Shown here in pieces: positions 11,690 to 19,700 of a DNA stretch of 64,000 nucleotides. The stretch's first letter is position 1. The number at the start of each line of letters is the position of its first letter. Below the pieces are notes generated by a model. That model was given only the letters and a program-made list of their open reading frames with translations, ran no database searches and had not been told where the DNA came from. A program made the position numbers and the translations under genes. Origin of the DNA: Acidiphilium rubrum (GTDB lineage: Bacteria > Pseudomonadota > Alphaproteobacteria > Acetobacterales > Acetobacteraceae); the NCBI RefSeq assembly GCF_900156265.1, contig NZ_FTNE01000018.1:1-64000 (forward strand), read 5' to 3'.

Positions 11690-13501
11690 TCAAAATACGG
11701 CATCGCTGTCGGATTCGCCGCGCTCGACTCGCTTGAGGGCAATCACGCATATGCGGTGCCGCTCGAAATTTTCAGGTGTCGGATCAGATTCGAAACGGAG
11801 TCTTTGCTCTTCGCATTGCACTTGCAGATGCTTCAAATTCATGAGCCCGTAGATCCCGTACCAAGATGCCTCCAACTCAGCCATCGCGGCTGCGTCATTG
11901 TCGGGAGCGCGTTGCGGCATGAGCGCGAGCAAGGGCTCGGCCACATCCCGCAGACCCGATTGGGTCAAATGGTTGAGCAGATCGTCCGAGTCAAGGGCCT
12001 TTGCCGCATGAAACCATTTTGCCATCGAATCGCGCAGCCGGGCGCAATCATCGGGCAGGGCCAGCAGGCCGAACGCTTCCTCCAGATCGGGCAAAAGTGT
12101 CGGATGGCAAAGCAGAATTGCGGTCAGCAGCCGTGCGCGGCGCGCAGAGGTCGTTTCGGCATCGATCGCGGGGCGGGGCAGGACGATGTGCGGCGATGCG
12201 GGCCGTCCGCCGCCGTTGCGCCGGGCCTGCGTGCCGGCGGTGAAGGACTGGCGGCGTTCGGCATAGAGGCGGTCGATCAGGGATGCGCGATATTCGCCGG
12301 CCAGGGAACGATCCTCGATGCTGCGCGCCGCCGCTTCGAGGCGTTTGCGAAATGCGGCGCGGCCTTCCGGCGTGGTGCGCTGGGCACCCTCGGCCAGCAT
12401 GTCGTATAGGGTTTCGGCGAGATTAGGGGCGGCGGCGATCAGGGCTGCGAGGGCTGGTGCGCCTTCGCGGCGGACGAAACTGTCCGGATCGTCACCCTCC
12501 TTGAGCCTCAGGATGGCGAGCCCGCGATCCGGTGCGAGGGCTTTCAGGGCAAGCTCGGTCGAGCGCAGTGCGGCGCGCCGGCCAGCGGCATCGCCATCGA
12601 AGCACAGCAGCGGGCGCGGCGAGATGCGCCATAATTCAGCGAGATGCGCCTCGGTCAGAGCGGTGCCGAGCGGGGCGACCGCGCCAGTGAAGCCGGCTTC
12701 GTGCAGGGCGATGACGTCCATATAGCCTTCGACAACGATGAGTGCGGCGCCGTTGCGGACGGCGGCGCGGGCGATGTCGAGCCCGTACAGGGTCTGGCGC
12801 TTGGAGAATAAATCGGTCTCCGGGCCGTTGAGATATTTCGGCTGGCCATCGCCCAGCAGGCGGCCGCCGAAGCTGATGATGCGGCCGCGACGGTCGCGGA
12901 TGGGGAACATCACGCGGGCGAAGAAATAATCGACGGGGCCGCGCTCGCCCGCCTTCATCAACCCCGCCTCGATCAGTCTGGCGGGCGTGATGTCCTGGCG
13001 GGCGAGCGCTTCGCGCAACGTGCCGCGCCCTTCGCCGGACCAGCCGAGGCCGAACCGCTCGATGATGGAATCGCTCAGGCCGCGTCCGCGCAGATAGGCC
13101 AGGGCCGCCGCACCCTGTGGGGTGCGCAGCAGGCGGCGATATTCCGCACCGGCCGCCTCCAGCACATCGGACAGGTCGGCTTCGCGCCGCGCGGCTTCGG
13201 CGGCCTGGGGGGTGGGTTTCGGCACGGCGAGGCCGGCCTCGGCCGCGAGGCGTTCGACCGCTTCCATGAAGGTCGCCCCTTCGTTCTGCATGACGAAGCT
13301 GATGGCATCGCCATGCGCGCCGCAGCCGAAGCAATGGTAGTGATCGTCATAGACGTAGAACGACGGCGATTTTTCGTTGTGGAACGGGCAGCAGCCCTTC
13401 TGGTCGCGCCCGGCGCGCTCGAGCCGCACCTTGCGCGCGACCAGCGTTGCCAGCGGGGTGCGGGCGCGCAATTCGTCCAGAAAATTGGGCGGCAGGCTCA
13501 T
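11690..13501 (-). CDS. dnaG: DNA primase
   Basis: 603 residues. It makes RNA primers at the replication fork. The N-terminal CHCC zinc ribbon is complete (Cys38, His41, Cys57, Cys60). The TOPRIM core follows with IVVEGYMDVIALH and CFDGDAAGRRAA, whose acidic residues bind the catalytic metals. The C-terminal helicase-binding region is divergent, as usual. The start overlaps the yqeY stop by 4 bases, and rpoD follows. Confidence 0.97.
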   Translation of the reverse strand: MSLPPNFLDELRARTPLATLVARKVRLERAGRDQKGCCPFHNEKSPSFYVYDDHYHCFGCGAHGDAISFVMQNEGATFMEAVERLAAEAGLAVPKPTPQAAEAARREADLSDVLEAAGAEYRRLLRTPQGAAALAYLRGRGLSDSIIERFGLGWSGEGRGTLREALARQDITPARLIEAGLMKAGERGPVDYFFARVMFPIRDRRGRIISFGGRLLGDGQPKYLNGPETDLFSKRQTLYGLDIARAAVRNGAALIVVEGYMDVIALHEAGFTGAVAPLGTALTEAHLAELWRISPRPLLCFDGDAAGRRAALRSTELALKALAPDRGLAILRLKEGDDPDSFVRREGAPALAALIAAAPNLAETLYDMLAEGAQRTTPEGRAAFRKRLEAAARSIEDRSLAGEYRASLIDRLYAERRQSFTAGTQARRNGGGRPASPHIVLPRPAIDAETTSARRARLLTAILLCHPTLLPDLEEAFGLLALPDDCARLRDSMAKWFHAAKALDSDDLLNHLTQSGLRDVAEPLLALMPQRAPDNDAAAMAELEASWYGIYGLMNLKHLQVQCEEQRLRFESDPTPENFERHRICVIALKRVERGESDSDAVF

Positions 13502-13962
13502 GGTGCGGCGAGTTTCGCCTTCACTGCGGCCGAGGCGGCGGCCATGTCGAGCGCAGGACCATGGGCCGCCTTCAGCGCGGCAATGACCTTGCCCATGTCT
13601 TTCGGGCCGGTGGCGCCGCTGGTGGCGATGGCCTGGGCGATCGCGGCATCGAGCGCCTCGCCCTGCAGGGTACGGGGCAGGTAGGCTTCGAGGATGACGA
13701 TTTCCGCGGCCTCCTGATCGGCGAGGTCGGGGCGGTTGCCCTGGCGGTACTGCGCTTCGGACTCGCGGCGGGTTTTCACCATGCCGCGCAGCAAGGCCAC
13801 GATGTCTTCATCAGAGATCGCATCGATGCCTTTGGGGCGGGCCGCGATATCCGCATCCTTCAGTTTGGCGGCGGCCATGCGCAGGGTGGAGACGGCGAGC
13901 GGCTGGCGGGCGAGCATCGCCGCTTTCAGGTCGGCCTGGATCTGGGTTCGTAAGGCGCTCAT
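13498..13962 (-). CDS. yqeY: GatB/YqeY domain protein
   Basis: 154 residues of the YqeY family, which shares the C-terminal tRNA-interacting helical domain of GatB. Marks are the LRTQIQADLKAAMLAR start, VSTLRMAAAKLKDADIA, and the Gly-Pro-Lys-Asp-Met-Gly-Lys-Val motif near 120. I chose ATG 13962 because GGAG lies 8 bases ahead; a GTG three codons upstream (13971) is possible. It is first in the leftward yqeY-dnaG-rpoD-GNAT unit. Its precise cellular role is not established. Confidence 0.93.
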   Translation of the reverse strand: MSALRTQIQADLKAAMLARQPLAVSTLRMAAAKLKDADIAARPKGIDAISDEDIVALLRGMVKTRRESEAQYRQGNRPDLADQEAAEIVILEAYLPRTLQGEALDAAIAQAIATSGATGPKDMGKVIAALKAAHGPALDMAAASAAVKAKLAAP

Positions 13963-13989: not shown

Positions 13990-14010
13990 TTGCGGAAACT
14001 ATTTCCGCAA
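13990..14010. promoter_or_regulatory. Perfect palindrome between yqeY and carA (candidate operator)
   Basis: TTGCGGAAA and TTTCCGCAA form a perfect 9-bp dyad around a 3-base centre. It sits in the 109-base divergent intergenic region, 28 bases upstream of yqeY and 61 bases upstream of carA. The size and symmetry suit a dimeric helix-turn-helix regulator. A weaker dyad (CCGGA...TCCGG) lies about 30 bases further right. Confidence 0.55.
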
Positions 14011-14071
14011 TGACCTTGGGCAGTCTGTTTTTGGTTGATCCCGGATTTAATTTCCGGCATACCGCATCATC

Positions 14072-15421
14072 ATGCCAAAAACCATCGCTGAACTGATCGA
14101 TCGTCTGGGTGGTGCCGAAGCGGCCGCCCGGCTTACCATGGTTTCAACCGAAGCGGTTCGCAAATGGCGCAGTGCCGGTGCGATTCCGGCCCGGCACTGG
14201 CCGGCGGTGCTCGCCGCGACCGGGTTTTCGTTGCAGGACCTGCCGGGTGGCAGCGCGCCGGATGGGGTGACGGCGCGGCCGGATGCCGCGACGGCGGCGC
14301 TGGTGCTGGGCGATGGACAGGTGTTCTGGGGCAAGGGGTTCGGCGCGTTCAGCGCCGGGATGCCGGCCGAGCTGTGTTTTTCGACCGGGATGACCGGGTA
14401 TCAGGAAACGCTGACCGATCCTTCGTTCGCCGGGCAGATCATTACGTTCACGTTTCCGCATATCGGCAATGTCGGGGCGAACGGTGAGGATATCGAGGCG
14501 GCGACGAGTTTTGCCCGTGGCCTGGTGATCAACCGGGATATCACGGCGCCGTCGAGCTGGCGTGCGGCGGAGGGGCTGGATCGCTGGTGCCGGCGGATGG
14601 GTCTGGCGGGGATTGCCGGGGTCGATACCCGCGCGCTGACCCGCACGATCCGCGATGATGGACCGCCGAATGCGCTGATCGCGTTTCCACAGGATGGTCA
14701 GTTCGACCTCGATGCGCTGGTTGCGCGTGCGCGGGACTGGCCGGGTCTGGCCGGGATGGACCTGGCACGCGAGGTTTCGTGCACCCAGACCCATGAGTGG
14801 ACCGAGACGCTGTGGGACCGGGTGAGCGGGTTCGGCCGGCAGACGGCGCCGCGCCATACCGTGGTCGCGGTCGATTTCGGCGCCAAGCGCAATATTTTCC
14901 GCAGTCTGGCGAGTGCGGGGTGCCGGGTGATCGTGGTGCCGGCGACGGCTTCGGCGGAGGATATTCTGCGCCACCGGCCGGACGGGGTGTTTCTGTCGAA
15001 CGGGCCGGGTGATCCGGCGGCGACGGCGGTGTATGCGGTGCCGGCGATCCGCAGTGTGCTCGATGCCGGGGTGCCGCTGTTCGGAATTTGCCTCGGGCAT
15101 CAGTTGCTCGCCCATGCGCTGGGGGGGACGACGTACAAGCTGGCGCGCGGGCATCGGGGGGCCAATCAGCCGGTGCAGGAGATTGCGACCGGCAAGGTTG
15201 AGATCACCAGCCAGAACCACGGGTTTGCGGTGGACGAGGCCTCCTTGCCGGCGGATGTTGTGGTGACGCATCGCAGCCTGTTCGATGGGTCGAACGAGGG
15301 GATTGCCTGCGCCGCGAAGCGTTGTTTTTCGGTGCAATATCATCCTGAGGCGAGCCCGGGGCCATCCGATGCGCATCATTTGTTCGGGCGGTTCACGGCG
15401 ATGCTGGCGAAGGGCGTATAG
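14072..15421 (+). CDS. carA: Carbamoyl-phosphate synthase small subunit with N-terminal HTH-like extension
   Basis: 449 residues against about 380 for a typical CarA. Residues about 70-449 are a normal glutaminase subunit. The CarA N-domain has FSTGMTGYQETLTDPS, and the class-I amidotransferase domain has the nucleophile in FGICLGHQLLAHALGG and the His/Glu pair in QYHPEASPGP. It feeds ammonia to CarB for arginine and pyrimidine synthesis. The extra residues 1-60 (TIAELIDRLGG, AARLTMVSTEAVRKWRSAG, IPARHWPAVLAA) read like a Cro/YdaS-type helix-turn-helix. I recall a 'carph-isopro' domain attached to CarA in related bacteria. The ATG at 14072 is the first start, and the extension is in frame without interruption. 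Confidence 0.95.
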   Translation: MPKTIAELIDRLGGAEAAARLTMVSTEAVRKWRSAGAIPARHWPAVLAATGFSLQDLPGGSAPDGVTARPDAATAALVLGDGQVFWGKGFGAFSAGMPAELCFSTGMTGYQETLTDPSFAGQIITFTFPHIGNVGANGEDIEAATSFARGLVINRDITAPSSWRAAEGLDRWCRRMGLAGIAGVDTRALTRTIRDDGPPNALIAFPQDGQFDLDALVARARDWPGLAGMDLAREVSCTQTHEWTETLWDRVSGFGRQTAPRHTVVAVDFGAKRNIFRSLASAGCRVIVVPATASAEDILRHRPDGVFLSNGPGDPAATAVYAVPAIRSVLDAGVPLFGICLGHQLLAHALGGTTYKLARGHRGANQPVQEIATGKVEITSQNHGFAVDEASLPADVVVTHRSLFDGSNEGIACAAKRCFSVQYHPEASPGPSDAHHLFGRFTAMLAKGV

Positions 15422-15482: not shown

Positions 15483-16664
15483 ATGAACCCTGTTCGCAAC
15501 CCTTTTGCGCCCGGCGCCGGCACCAGGCCTCCCGAGTTGAGCGGGCGGGTCGGGCTGCTGGAAGAAACATCCGTTGCGATCGGGCGGGCGAAGCTGCGGC
15601 GGCCCGCTAAATCGATGATCGTGGTCGGATTGCGTGGGGTGGGCAAGACCGTGCTGCTCAACGAATTCGATCACATGGCAAGAGATGCGGGGTGTCGAAC
15701 GATTCTGATCGAGGCGCACGAGATCAAGCCGTTGCCCGATCTGCTGGTACCGCCGTTACGGCATTTGTTGCTGGAGCTCGACCGCCTGGGAACGCTCTCG
15801 GAGGCGGTGAAGCGCGGGTTGCGCGTGTTGAAGAGTTTCATGGGTTCGGTGCGGTTGAAATACGGTGAAGCTGAGATCGCGCTGGAGATCGATCCGGAGG
15901 TTGGGGCGGCGGACAGTGGCGATCTTGAGATCGATCTGCCTGCGGTGTTTCAGGCGGTCGGCCAGGCTGCGATCGACCGGGGGCAGACCGTGGTGCTGCT
16001 GATCGATGAACTGCAGTATTTGAAGCAACGCGAGATGAGCGCGCTGATCATGGCGTTGCACCGGATCAATCAGGACCGGTTGCCGATTCTGATGTTTGGC
16101 GCCGGGTTGCCGCAGGTGTTGGCTCTGGCCGGGAAATCAAAATCCTACGCGGAACGGCTGTTCGATTTTCCGCGGGTGGGGTCGCTGTCGGGTGCGGATG
16201 CGGCGGACGCAATTCGTAAACCGATCGAGGCCGAGGGTGAGCGGATCACCGCGGCGGCGCTGGCCGCGCTGATCGCGCAGACGCAGGGGTATCCGTTCTA
16301 CCTCCAGGAATGGGGCTATCAGGCCTGGCAAGTGGCGCGGCAGTCGCCGATCGATGTCGCCGATATCGAAGCGGCGACGGTGGTTTCGATCCGCCGGCTT
16401 GATGAGAGTTTTTTCCGGGTGCGGTTCGATCGTCTGACGCCGCGCGAGAAGGATTATGTGCGGGCGATGGCGAGCCTGCCGGGATCGGGGCCGTATCGGT
16501 CGGGGGATGTGGCAGACGCATTGGGGTTGCCGGTGCGGACGGTGGGACCGGTGCGGAACAATCTGATCGCCAAGGGCATGATCTATGCGCCGGCGTATGG
16601 GGATACGGCTTTTACTGTGCCGTTGTTTGAACTTTTTCTGAGACGGATCATGCCGCCTGACTAA
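15483..16664 (+). CDS. AAA ATPase with C-terminal winged-helix-like region (unknown role)
   Basis: 393 residues. Walker A is GLRGVGKT at 49-56 and Walker B is VLLIDELQ at 171-178. A sensor-like segment ILMFGAGLPQ is followed by a helical lid region (RLFDFPRVGSLSGADAADAIRKP). The last ~70 residues (LTPREKDYVRAMASL, SGDVADALGLPVRTVGPVRNNLIAKGMIY) are a clear winged-helix DNA-binding design. This is the archaeal-ATPase/Orc1-like (AAA_16) layout also used by DNA-binding signalling ATPases. The gene lies between carA and carB in the same direction, 61 bases after carA and 81 before carB. Its function is not known. Confidence 0.85.
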   Translation: MNPVRNPFAPGAGTRPPELSGRVGLLEETSVAIGRAKLRRPAKSMIVVGLRGVGKTVLLNEFDHMARDAGCRTILIEAHEIKPLPDLLVPPLRHLLLELDRLGTLSEAVKRGLRVLKSFMGSVRLKYGEAEIALEIDPEVGAADSGDLEIDLPAVFQAVGQAAIDRGQTVVLLIDELQYLKQREMSALIMALHRINQDRLPILMFGAGLPQVLALAGKSKSYAERLFDFPRVGSLSGADAADAIRKPIEAEGERITAAALAALIAQTQGYPFYLQEWGYQAWQVARQSPIDVADIEAATVVSIRRLDESFFRVRFDRLTPREKDYVRAMASLPGSGPYRSGDVADALGLPVRTVGPVRNNLIAKGMIYAPAYGDTAFTVPLFELFLRRIMPPD

Positions 16665-16670
16665 CGGGGT

Positions 16671-16711
16671 CTGGGGCCCAAGGCCCCAGCGGGTGCAGGG
16701 CGGAGCCCTGC
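16671..16711. repeat. Two adjacent hairpins upstream of carB
   Basis: CTGGGGCC-CAA-GGCCCCAG (16671-16689) is followed by GCAGGGC-GGA-GCCCTGC (16695-16711). Both stems are perfect and very short-looped. The GGCGGAGCC core and GGGGC/GCCCC stems recall the palindromes inside the 267-bp repeat at 8858-9124. They lie in the 81-base gap before carB and could attenuate or terminate transcripts from the ATPase gene. Confidence 0.65.
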
Positions 16712-16745
16712 TGCTTATCTTCATCGTCTAACTCAAGGACTGACC

Positions 16746-19700
16746 ATGCCCAAGCGGACCGACCTCAAATCAATCCTCATCATCGGTGCTGGTCCGATCG
16801 TGATCGGCCAGGCCTGCGAGTTCGATTATTCCGGGGCGCAGGCGTGCAAGGCGTTGCGCGAGGAGGGGTATCGGGTTGTGCTGGTCAACTCCAATCCGGC
16901 GACGATCATGACCGATCCTGAGCTCGCGGATGCGACGTATATCGAGCCGATCACCCCGGAGATGGTGGAGAAGATCATCATCAAGGAGCGGCCGGATGCG
17001 TTGTTGCCGACCATGGGCGGGCAGACGGCGCTGAATACCGCGATGGCGCTGGCGAAATCGGGCGTGCTGGACAAGCATGGGGTCGAGCTGATCGGGGCCA
17101 AGGCGGATGTGATCGATCGGGCGGAGGATCGGTTGAAGTTTCGCGATGCGATGGCCGAGATCGGGATTGAAAGCCCCAAGAGTGCGATTGCTCATTCGCT
17201 GGATGAGGCGCGGGCGGCGCTGGAGCTGGTGGGGTTGCCGGCGGTGATCCGGCCTTCGTTCACGCTGGGCGGCACGGGGGGCGGGATTGCGTTCAACCGC
17301 GAGGAGTTTCTGGAGATTGTCACCAGCGGGCTCGATGCGTCGCCGACCACGGAGGTGTTGATCGAGGAGAGCGTGCTCGGCTGGAAAGAGTACGAGATGG
17401 AGGTGGTGCGCGACGCGGCGGATAATTGCATCATTGTGTGTTCGATCGAGAATATCGATCCGATGGGCGTGCATACGGGTGATTCCGTGACGGTGGCGCC
17501 GGCGCTGACGCTGACGGACCGGGAATTCCAGATCATGCGGGATGCCTCGATTGCGTGTCTGCGCAAGATCGGCGTGGATACCGGCGGGTCGAACGTGCAG
17601 TTCGGCGTCAATCCGGCGGATGGGCGGATGGTGGTGATCGAGATGAATCCACGGGTGTCGCGTTCATCGGCGCTGGCTTCGAAGGCGACGGGATTTCCGA
17701 TCGCGAAGATCGCGGCGAAGCTGGCGGTGGGGTATACGCTGGATGAGTTGCGCAACGATATCACGCAGGTGACGCCGGCGAGTTTCGAGCCGACGATCGA
17801 TTACGTGGTGATCAAGATTCCGCGTTTCACCTTCGAGAAGTTTCCGGGCACGCCGGCGTTGCTGACCACGGCGATGAAGTCGGTCGGTGAGGCGATGGCG
17901 ATCGGGCGGAATTTCGCCGAGGCGTTGCAGAAGGGGTTGCGCAGTCTGGAAACCGGGCTGTCCGGGCTCGATGAGGTCGAGGCGCCGGGCGATGGCACGC
18001 ATGATGCGTTCCGCGCCGCATTGTCGACGCCGCGGCCGGATCGGTTGCTGATTGCGGCGCAGGCGTTGCGGGCCGGGCTGTCGGTTGCGGATATTCATGC
18101 GACGTCGAAATTTGATCCGTGGTTTCTCGAGCAGATGGCGGAGATTGTCGCGGTGGAGCGGCGGATTGCGCGCGAGGGGTTGCCGGAGGATGCGATCGGG
18201 CTGCGCGCGATCAAGGCGCTGGGGTTTTCCGACAAGCGCCTGGCGCAGTTGAGCGGGCGTGCCGAGGCATCGATCGCGGCGGAACGCGCGGCGCTTGGCG
18301 TGGTGCCGGTGTATCGGCGGATCGACAGTACGGCGGGCGAGTTCGCATCGGCCACATCGTATATGTATGCGACGTATGAGGGCGGATTTGGCGTGCCGCA
18401 TTGCGAGGCGGCGCCGACCGACCGGCGGAAGGTCGTTATTCTGGGCGGCGGGCCGAACCGGATCGGGCAGGGGATCGAGTTCGATTATTGCTGCGTCCAT
18501 GCCGCCTACGCGCTGCGTGAGGCGGGGTTTGAGACCATCATGGTCAATTGCAATCCCGAAACGGTTTCGACCGATTACGATACGTCGGACCGGCTGTATT
18601 TCGAGCCGCTGTTCGCCGAGGACGTGATTGCGCTGATCCGGCGCGAGCAGCAGGACGGCACGGTGCTCGGCTGCATCGTGCAATATGGCGGCCAGACGCC
18701 ATTGAAGCTGAGCCGGGCGCTGGAGGATGCGGGGATTGCGATTTTGGGCACCTCGGCCGATGCGATCGATATTGCCGAAGATCGTGAGCGGTTCCAGGTT
18801 TTGTTGAAATCGCTCGGGTTGCGCCAGCCGGAAAACGGTACTGCGCGGTCGGCGGCGCAGGCTGAGGCGATCGTCGAGAAAATCGGGTTTCCGGTGGTGA
18901 TCCGGCCGAGTTACGTGCTGGGCGGTCGGGCGATGGAGATTGTGTATGATCTGCCCAATCTGCGGCGCTACATGCGCGAGGCGGTGATCGTTTCGGGGAG
19001 CAATCCCGTGTTGATCGACCGGTATCTGAACGATGCGATCGAGGTGGATGTCGATTGCATCGCCGACGGCCAGACGGTCTATGTCGCGGGTGTGATGGAA
19101 CATATCGAAGAGGCCGGCATTCATTCGGGAGACAGTGCGTGCTCGCTGCCGCCCTATTCGCTCTCACCCGCCGTGGTGGCCGAATTGCGTTCGGAGACCG
19201 AGGCGATGGCGAAGGCGTTGAACGTGATCGGGCTGATGAACGTGCAGTTCGCCATCCAGGGTGACAATGTCTATGTGCTCGAGGTGAACCCGCGGGCGTC
19301 ACGCACGGTGCCGTTCGTCGCCAAGGCGACCGGCGTATCGGTGGCGAAAATCGGTGCGCGGGTGATGGCGGGGGAAACGCTCGCCTCGTTCGGCCTCGAT
19401 GACAGCGTGATGCGCAGCCATGTCGCGGTGAAGGAGGCGGTATTTCCGTTCGCGCGGTTTTCCGGCGTCGATGTGCTGCTCGGCCCGGAGATGAAATCGA
19501 CCGGCGAGGTGATGGGGCTGGATGCGAGTTTCGCGCGCGCCTTCGCCAAGGCGCAGCTGGGCGCGGGGGTGAAGCTGCCGCGCGGCGGCACCGTGCTGCT
19601 GTCGGTGCGCGATGGCGACAAGGCGGCGATCGTTTCGATTGCGCGGCGCTTCGTCGATCTCGGGTTCACCATCATGGCGACGCGGGGGACGGCGGCGCAT

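Follow-up and report, generated by a model that had tools for sequence, protein, structure and literature searches.

Carbamoyl-phosphate synthase small subunit CarA carries a Cro-type head and probably represses its own gene in Acetobacteraceae

Why does the small subunit of a biosynthetic enzyme begin with what looks like a DNA-binding domain? The question is raised by carA of Acidiphilium rubrum (Acetobacteraceae), which lies in a stretch of 64,000 nucleotides (contig NZ_FTNE01000018.1 of assembly GCF_900156265.1, positions 1 to 64,000 of the forward strand), referred to here as the window. A preliminary description of the window had reported that the protein, the small subunit of carbamoyl-phosphate synthase (CPSase), opens with a Cro-like helix-turn-helix (HTH) and mentioned related fusions labelled carph-isopro. 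It had also suggested that CarA, if it binds DNA, could regulate carA and the neighboring yqeY directly. Comparison of sequences leads us to conclude that the fused protein, HTH-CarA, probably represses its own gene, carA, through two upstream palindromes.

Residues 5-57 of CarA match the model NF046037 ('carphisopro', or carph-isopro) at 64.8 bits against a curated cut-off of 38, in agreement with that label. The Pfam models YdaS_toxin and P22_Cro match the same head, both below their cut-offs. AlphaFold2 predicts a four-helix HTH with a mean predicted local distance difference test (pLDDT) of 84 and helices at 5-12, 15-22, 26-35 and 40-50, of which helix 26-35 would be the recognition helix. 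The model of the full-length protein retains the head, followed by a stretch below pLDDT 50 at residues 58-65; its enzyme part also falls below 50 at 105-121, 129-136, 157-164 and 428-431. A Foldseek search with the head model placed N15 Cro at the top (probability 1.00, TM score 0.63, E 0.03), with XPH1, Xfaso 1 and P22 Cro among further matches (probability 0.97-1.00, E 0.03-0.3), and returned nothing at E 0.001 or better. Likewise, a profile of 22 relatives compared with PDB chains found three Cro-type chains at E 0.0003-0.0017 and P22 Cro at 0.14. Together the models point to an HTH of the Cro fold, of the P22/N15 type.

Behind the head the enzyme is intact. The small-subunit model TIGR01368 covers residues 75-445 in a profile search (E 1e-126), both PF00988 (small chain) and PF00117 (class I glutaminase) are matched in Pfam, and solved CPSase small subunits align to the window's CarA from residue 74 onward only. 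C340, H424 and E426, which we take to be the Cys-His-Glu catalytic residues, are invariant in 22 sequences, and the small subunit is complete. The two parts of the protein thus bear out the preliminary description, which had read a Cro-like HTH followed by a complete glutaminase subunit.

Is the fusion confined to this genome? Among 150 genomes of the family the CPSase small subunit matched in 149 (143 above cut-off) and the head in 144 (142 above cut-off), a domain tally that includes a stand-alone copy in G116. When the best head place was compared with the best carA place in each genome, the head adjoined carA in 140 of the 146 genomes with a carA place, among the matches listed; the extension is thus present in nearly all CarA homologues of the family. 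The six exceptions comprise intact headless genes (G029 and G116, both of genus g30), a gene split over two contigs (G035) and partial carA (G026, G069, G146), and two of the 140 fused genes are broken, by a stop in the enzyme part (G033) and by a frameshift (G088). In a second draw of 120 genomes at order level, all of the same family, the head peptide was found in 119. The one exception was G155, from genus g31; the other g31 genomes drawn carry the head. A class-level draw of 190 genomes revealed the domain in 54 genomes outside the family at E 0.001, and in 0 of the 33 compared did it stand beside carA (among the matches listed).

We then ask what the head might bind. Upstream of the window's carA lies a perfect 9-bp dyad, TTGCGGAAA-CTA-TTTCCGCAA, at 13990-14010, exactly where the preliminary description had placed it, 61 bases before the ATG. 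Even when up to 3 mismatches were tolerated, the window gave no further match to the pattern. As a rarity in itself the dyad was rejected, since 9-bp perfect dyads are common there (20 overlapping matches, versus 2-11 in five shuffles); it stands out from chance because such sites occupy equivalent positions in 105 related genes. A second dyad, overlooked before, sits in the likely carA promoter (the proximal operator of the table), and the two predicted operators are 49 bp apart. In the genus-mate L156 the proximal site is identical in its letters; the equivalent of the distal site is CCGGAAATAAATTCCGG, in which each arm differs at its outer base.

The relatives display these sites more clearly in a consensus, TGGGAA-N5-TTCCCA, whose 12 fixed bases were built from the same genes that it scores. 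Of 113 carA regions, 109 have the head (L020, L107, L141 and L142 do not), and removal of 4 duplicates left 105. The best site scored 12 of 12 in 64 of these genes, at least 11 in 92 and at least 10 in 98, and a second site reached at least 10 in 75. In 2100 dinucleotide shuffles the top best-site score was 10 (1.5%) and the top second-site score 9 (0.4%), so that a best site of at least 11 and a second site of at least 10 were each seen in 0 of 2100. Spacing of the pair was 38-40 bp in 68 of the 99 genes having two sites of at least 8. The dyad is therefore conserved in place upstream of carA, mostly in other letters than the window's, and the palindromic shape of these candidate operators fits dimer binding by the head.

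Sites and head go together across genomes. The perfect motif occurs 133 times in the 150 genomes (in 94 of them), versus 12 times for the reversed pattern, and 67 of 75 listed perfect sites (of the 133) lie at most 270 bp from the head's coordinate, with 8 elsewhere. Genome G072 has 11 perfect sites versus 0-3 in the others, perhaps a repeat element. Unfused carA genes of the class (28 readable of 30; L201 and L225 gave no motif match) have best sites of 7-9 only. Likewise, the headless carA of genus g30 (2 genomes) and of G155 have best upstream sites of 7-9 and no pair, whereas L296 and L298, genus-mates of G155, score 12 and 11. We presume these to be two separate losses of the head, because g30 and g31 are different genera.

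The absences also bear on the idea that a small Cro-like gene was fused by chance and survives in the head as a relic of no present role. It is missing in the small genomes of G155 (1.7 Mb), G029 (1.9 Mb) and G116 (2.1 Mb), and hence dispensable there. However, an alignment of 22 sequences shows no variation at nine of its residues (G13, G14, R30, K31, W32, R33, P39, H42 and W43), and the head is retained together with the operator sites, which leaves a relic extremely unlikely.

A second family of fusions shows a comparable arrangement with different letters. NnrE is an NAD(P)HX epimerase/dehydratase, and 9 of the 11 genomes in the family of HTH-NnrE contain its head peptide. All 9 readable loci among 10 (L126, L286-L294) have, 26-30 bases upstream of the ATG, a palindrome resembling TGTACGT-N5-ACGTACA that scores 10-14 of 14 bases, with five of the nine at 13 or 14; among 1800 shuffles 69 reached 10, 11 reached 11 and none 13. 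Its distance to the start is that of the proximal site of carA; the letters differ. We count this palindrome among the strongest evidence for a link between head and operator. It argues against the view that a separate regulator uses the carA palindromes as its operators while the CarA head does something else, such as contacting a protein. Such a regulator has a precedent in E. coli, where carAB is under several separate proteins, including the trigger enzyme PepA (PMC6245113, in excerpt), but it would have to account for the perfect sites clustering at HTH-carA and for their absence from the headless carA of two family genera and from the 28 unfused genes. We consider a separate regulator unlikely, and self-repression by HTH-CarA remains the preferred reading.

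The placement of the proximal site suggests how repression could be exerted. It begins 28-32 bases before the ATG in 74 of the 105 genes, and in 66 of these 74 a TTG stands 6 or 7 bases before it; the second base after the site is A in 91% of the 74, followed by a weaker T and A. The flanks are likely a -35 and a -10 with the operator as their spacer, and the mRNA would start at or near the ATG. The window's elements were assigned from the same alignment profile; since its start codon lies 8 nt past the likely -10, a nearly leaderless mRNA is predicted. In G. oxydans 62 leaderless mRNAs (5%) have been described, so such mRNAs occur in the family (PMC5756330, in excerpt); the main text of that paper contains neither the word 'carA' nor 'carbamoyl'. 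By sequence, a conserved candidate operator thus lies inside the predicted promoter of carA itself, as expected of an autogenous repressor. HTH-CarA might instead bind and activate, or merely hold CarAB near its gene. The distal site does lie upstream of the likely -35, a position at which activators can act, but a protein bound between -35 and -10, where the proximal site falls in those 74 genes, normally excludes the polymerase, and we judge either variant very unlikely.

Several observations weigh against self-repression or narrow its reach. The family consensus scores the window's gene at 8 and 7 of 12, values common in shuffles, and four further fused genes score no higher than 8. The window carries a divergent CGGA version of the site, versus GGGA elsewhere, which a consensus scan alone would miss. 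The genome of the window contains 7 copies of CGGAA-N5-TTCCG and equally 7 of the reversed control, so uniqueness of the window-type site in its genome was discarded as an argument. We accept the two sites because they share the positions and the symmetry of those in relatives and are kept in L156. Furthermore, the proximal site falls outside -28 to -32 in 31 of the 105 genes; among acetic acid bacteria, Gluconobacter and several others have it about 65-95 bases upstream, where the spacer layout is inapplicable. The NnrE consensus was derived from the loci that it scores, and 24 of 101 fused genes have no ATG in the linker between head and enzyme. Finally, the operator base varies with the residue after KWR, Q occurring mostly with G, and S or A with C (97 genes: 82 Q-G, 5 non-Q with C, 2+2 mismatched, 6 undecided). 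Such a trend is compatible with a recognition helix that reads the base directly but proves nothing, because no more than two independent contrasts are supported on the tree, which is not significant; this covariation was set aside as evidence.

We propose that the Cro-type HTH of full-length CarA binds the two palindromes upstream of carA. Binding at the proximal site would block RNA polymerase, because the site fills the spacer between the likely -35 and -10, and the distal site, mostly 38-40 bp further upstream, would add cooperativity. Since enzyme and head form one protein, the signal would be the amount of free or correctly assembled CarA. The repressing form would most likely be CarA without CarB engagement or CarA in end-product-inhibited CarAB, candidates suggested by the fact that carA and carB are often non-adjacent and need balancing. 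In many relatives a start in the linker may also yield headless CarA, uncoupling the output of enzyme from that of repressor.

Evidence for that second start comes from 101 of the 105 genes (L102, L144, L174 and L190 left aside), of which 77 have an in-frame linker ATG. Neither the window's gene nor L156 has one, and a second start at a linker ATG was therefore rejected for the window. The Shine-Dalgarno energy of 94 linker ATGs averages -5.1 kcal/mol, compared with -2.3 for 193 other in-frame ATGs and -1.6 for 50 out-of-frame linker ATGs. Synonymous resampling expects -3.7, so the linker ATGs are stronger (p 2e-8, with genes treated as independent and kinship uncorrected); the same test on control ATGs gave no comparable excess. 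Some of the 94 are the methionine of a DMPG motif at the head's end and no start candidates; ATGs beyond DMPG with an energy of at most -4 are present in 62 of 97 genes. A GGAG 6 or 7 bases upstream of the ATG is present even where the ATG lies in another reading frame (L006 versus L035 and L169). On a tree with mostly weak inner branches, the linker ATG trait is gained or lost at least 20 times. In headless G155, carA has an ATG matching the linker ATG of relatives and sharing with L296 the preceding AAGACAGGAT, and this ATG is likely its start; an earlier in-frame ATG is also present, showing no similarity to the head. An SSRAPEGGT repeat lengthens the HTH-CarA linker in L144 and L107 (genome G035), and it is at this repeat that the gene is split between two contigs.

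Table 1. Features of the carA region, in window coordinates.
Feature	Coordinates	Strand	Sequence or basis
yqeY, divergent neighbor	13498..13962	-	start at the ATG of MSALRTQ; listed open reading frame begins at GTG, 13971
Distal operator (predicted)	13992..14008	unstranded	GCGGAAACTATTTCCGC; core of the 13990-14010 dyad
Likely -35 of carA	14035..14040	+	TTGATC; TTG profile of relatives, sequence
Proximal operator (predicted)	14041..14057	unstranded	CCGGATTTAATTTCCGG; between likely -35 and -10
Likely -10 of carA	14058..14063	+	CATACC; 3/6 to TATAAT; profile after the proximal site
carA, HTH-CarA fusion, 449 aa	14072..15421	+	open reading frame; TIGR01368 and NF046037 matches
carph-isopro / Cro-type HTH domain, aa 5-57	14084..14242	+	NF046037 (69.2 bits), AlphaFold2, N15 Cro match
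Linker, aa 58-74	14243..14293	+	no ATG; one GTG at 14267, codon 66

Does control extend to the neighboring genes? The divergent open reading frame is presumably yqeY, as named in the preliminary description, and a loose yqeY start pattern was matched divergently in 83 of the 105 relatives. On its strand no conserved promoter-like flank accompanies the distal site in 67 genes, and yqeY control by CarA was therefore left aside. Of the joint regulation of carA and yqeY suggested at first, self-repression of carA is the best reading, while the yqeY half is unsupported. Between carA and carB the window holds an ATPase-like open reading frame with a GLRGVGKT motif (15483-16664). Relatives have carA and carB separated by anything from about 40 bp to 2.7 kb, and for some of them the 3 kb examined did not reveal carB. 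A scan of 16561-16760, ahead of the window's carB, gave no operator-like site at the thresholds used, and an additional operator there was discarded.

The same head is joined to other enzymes. Partners confirmed by Pfam are NnrE/YjeF (L126), a zinc-type dehydrogenase that we take to be Ccr-like (L130), SerA (L136) and LeuA (L231), the last with the allosteric domain included. In the family with HTH-LeuA (L231, L256-L285), 75 of 80 genomes contain its head peptide. The HTH-LeuA junction keeps GGAG and an ATG in 27 distinct loci, all of one genus (30 taken, of which L280 was unreadable and two were repeats). Repeated TTGTCTAAA and TTTAGACAA pieces upstream of HTH-LeuA were read by eye only and so not accepted as an operator; a literature search for LeuA with an HTH in Neisseria found nothing related. 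The SerA (L136, 1489-3156) and Ccr-like (L130, 1486-3069) fusions each contain an internal ATG and a run rich in purines ahead of the enzyme part, and at the one locus of each no carA-like upstream palindrome was seen. Conservation of a linker start throughout HTH-NnrE was rejected, since among the loci read in frame only L286 has, close to the junction, an ATG that a clear Shine-Dalgarno precedes. Other class members of the domain, of the FGGIRPMAAKLG type, head apparently membrane-anchored proteins at L117, L119, L132, L133, L135, L137 and L140; they look mitofilin-like to us, and Pfam gave no match for L117 and L137.

These fusions tentatively suggest a general design, which we put forward as a conjecture with slightly less than even expectation. 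A Cro-type head would stand in frame before pathway enzymes (CarA, LeuA, SerA, NnrE, Ccr-like) with an operator in the own promoter where one is visible (CarA, NnrE), the enzyme serving as sensor of its own supply. CarA and LeuA would keep the old Shine-Dalgarno and start, so that one gene could give both a repressor-enzyme and the bare enzyme. We found no description in the literature of how carbamoyl-phosphate supply is matched to arginine and pyrimidine demand in these bacteria, and self-repression, if true, would be a one-gene answer. It would also give a function to a named domain, predict operators before other enzyme genes, and provide a case of one gene encoding an enzyme and its self-repressor from two starts.

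How does HTH-CarA compare with known systems? The head is a member of the carph-isopro domain by its NF046037 score; that entry is a sequence model for which we found no described function, and the operators, promoter placement and linker start are newly described here. Literature searches on the name carph-isopro, and on carA with a head, extension or autoregulation, found no paper. The Cro proteins of N15, Xfaso 1 and P22 share the predicted fold and HTH of the head. Phage Cro is a free protein, whereas the CarA head is part of an enzyme with its own predicted operator. PutA, BirA and NadR are enzymes with a fused DNA-binding domain that regulate their own pathway. They resemble HTH-CarA in joining such a domain to a self-regulating enzyme and differ in their domains and pathways; we know of no conserved internal start giving the bare enzyme among them. 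The nearest parallel in target is E. coli PepA, a metabolic enzyme that represses carAB, the carbamoyl-phosphate synthase promoter. PepA acts on the genes of another enzyme, whereas CarA would repress its own gene via a separate HTH head (PMC6245113 for PepA, in excerpt).
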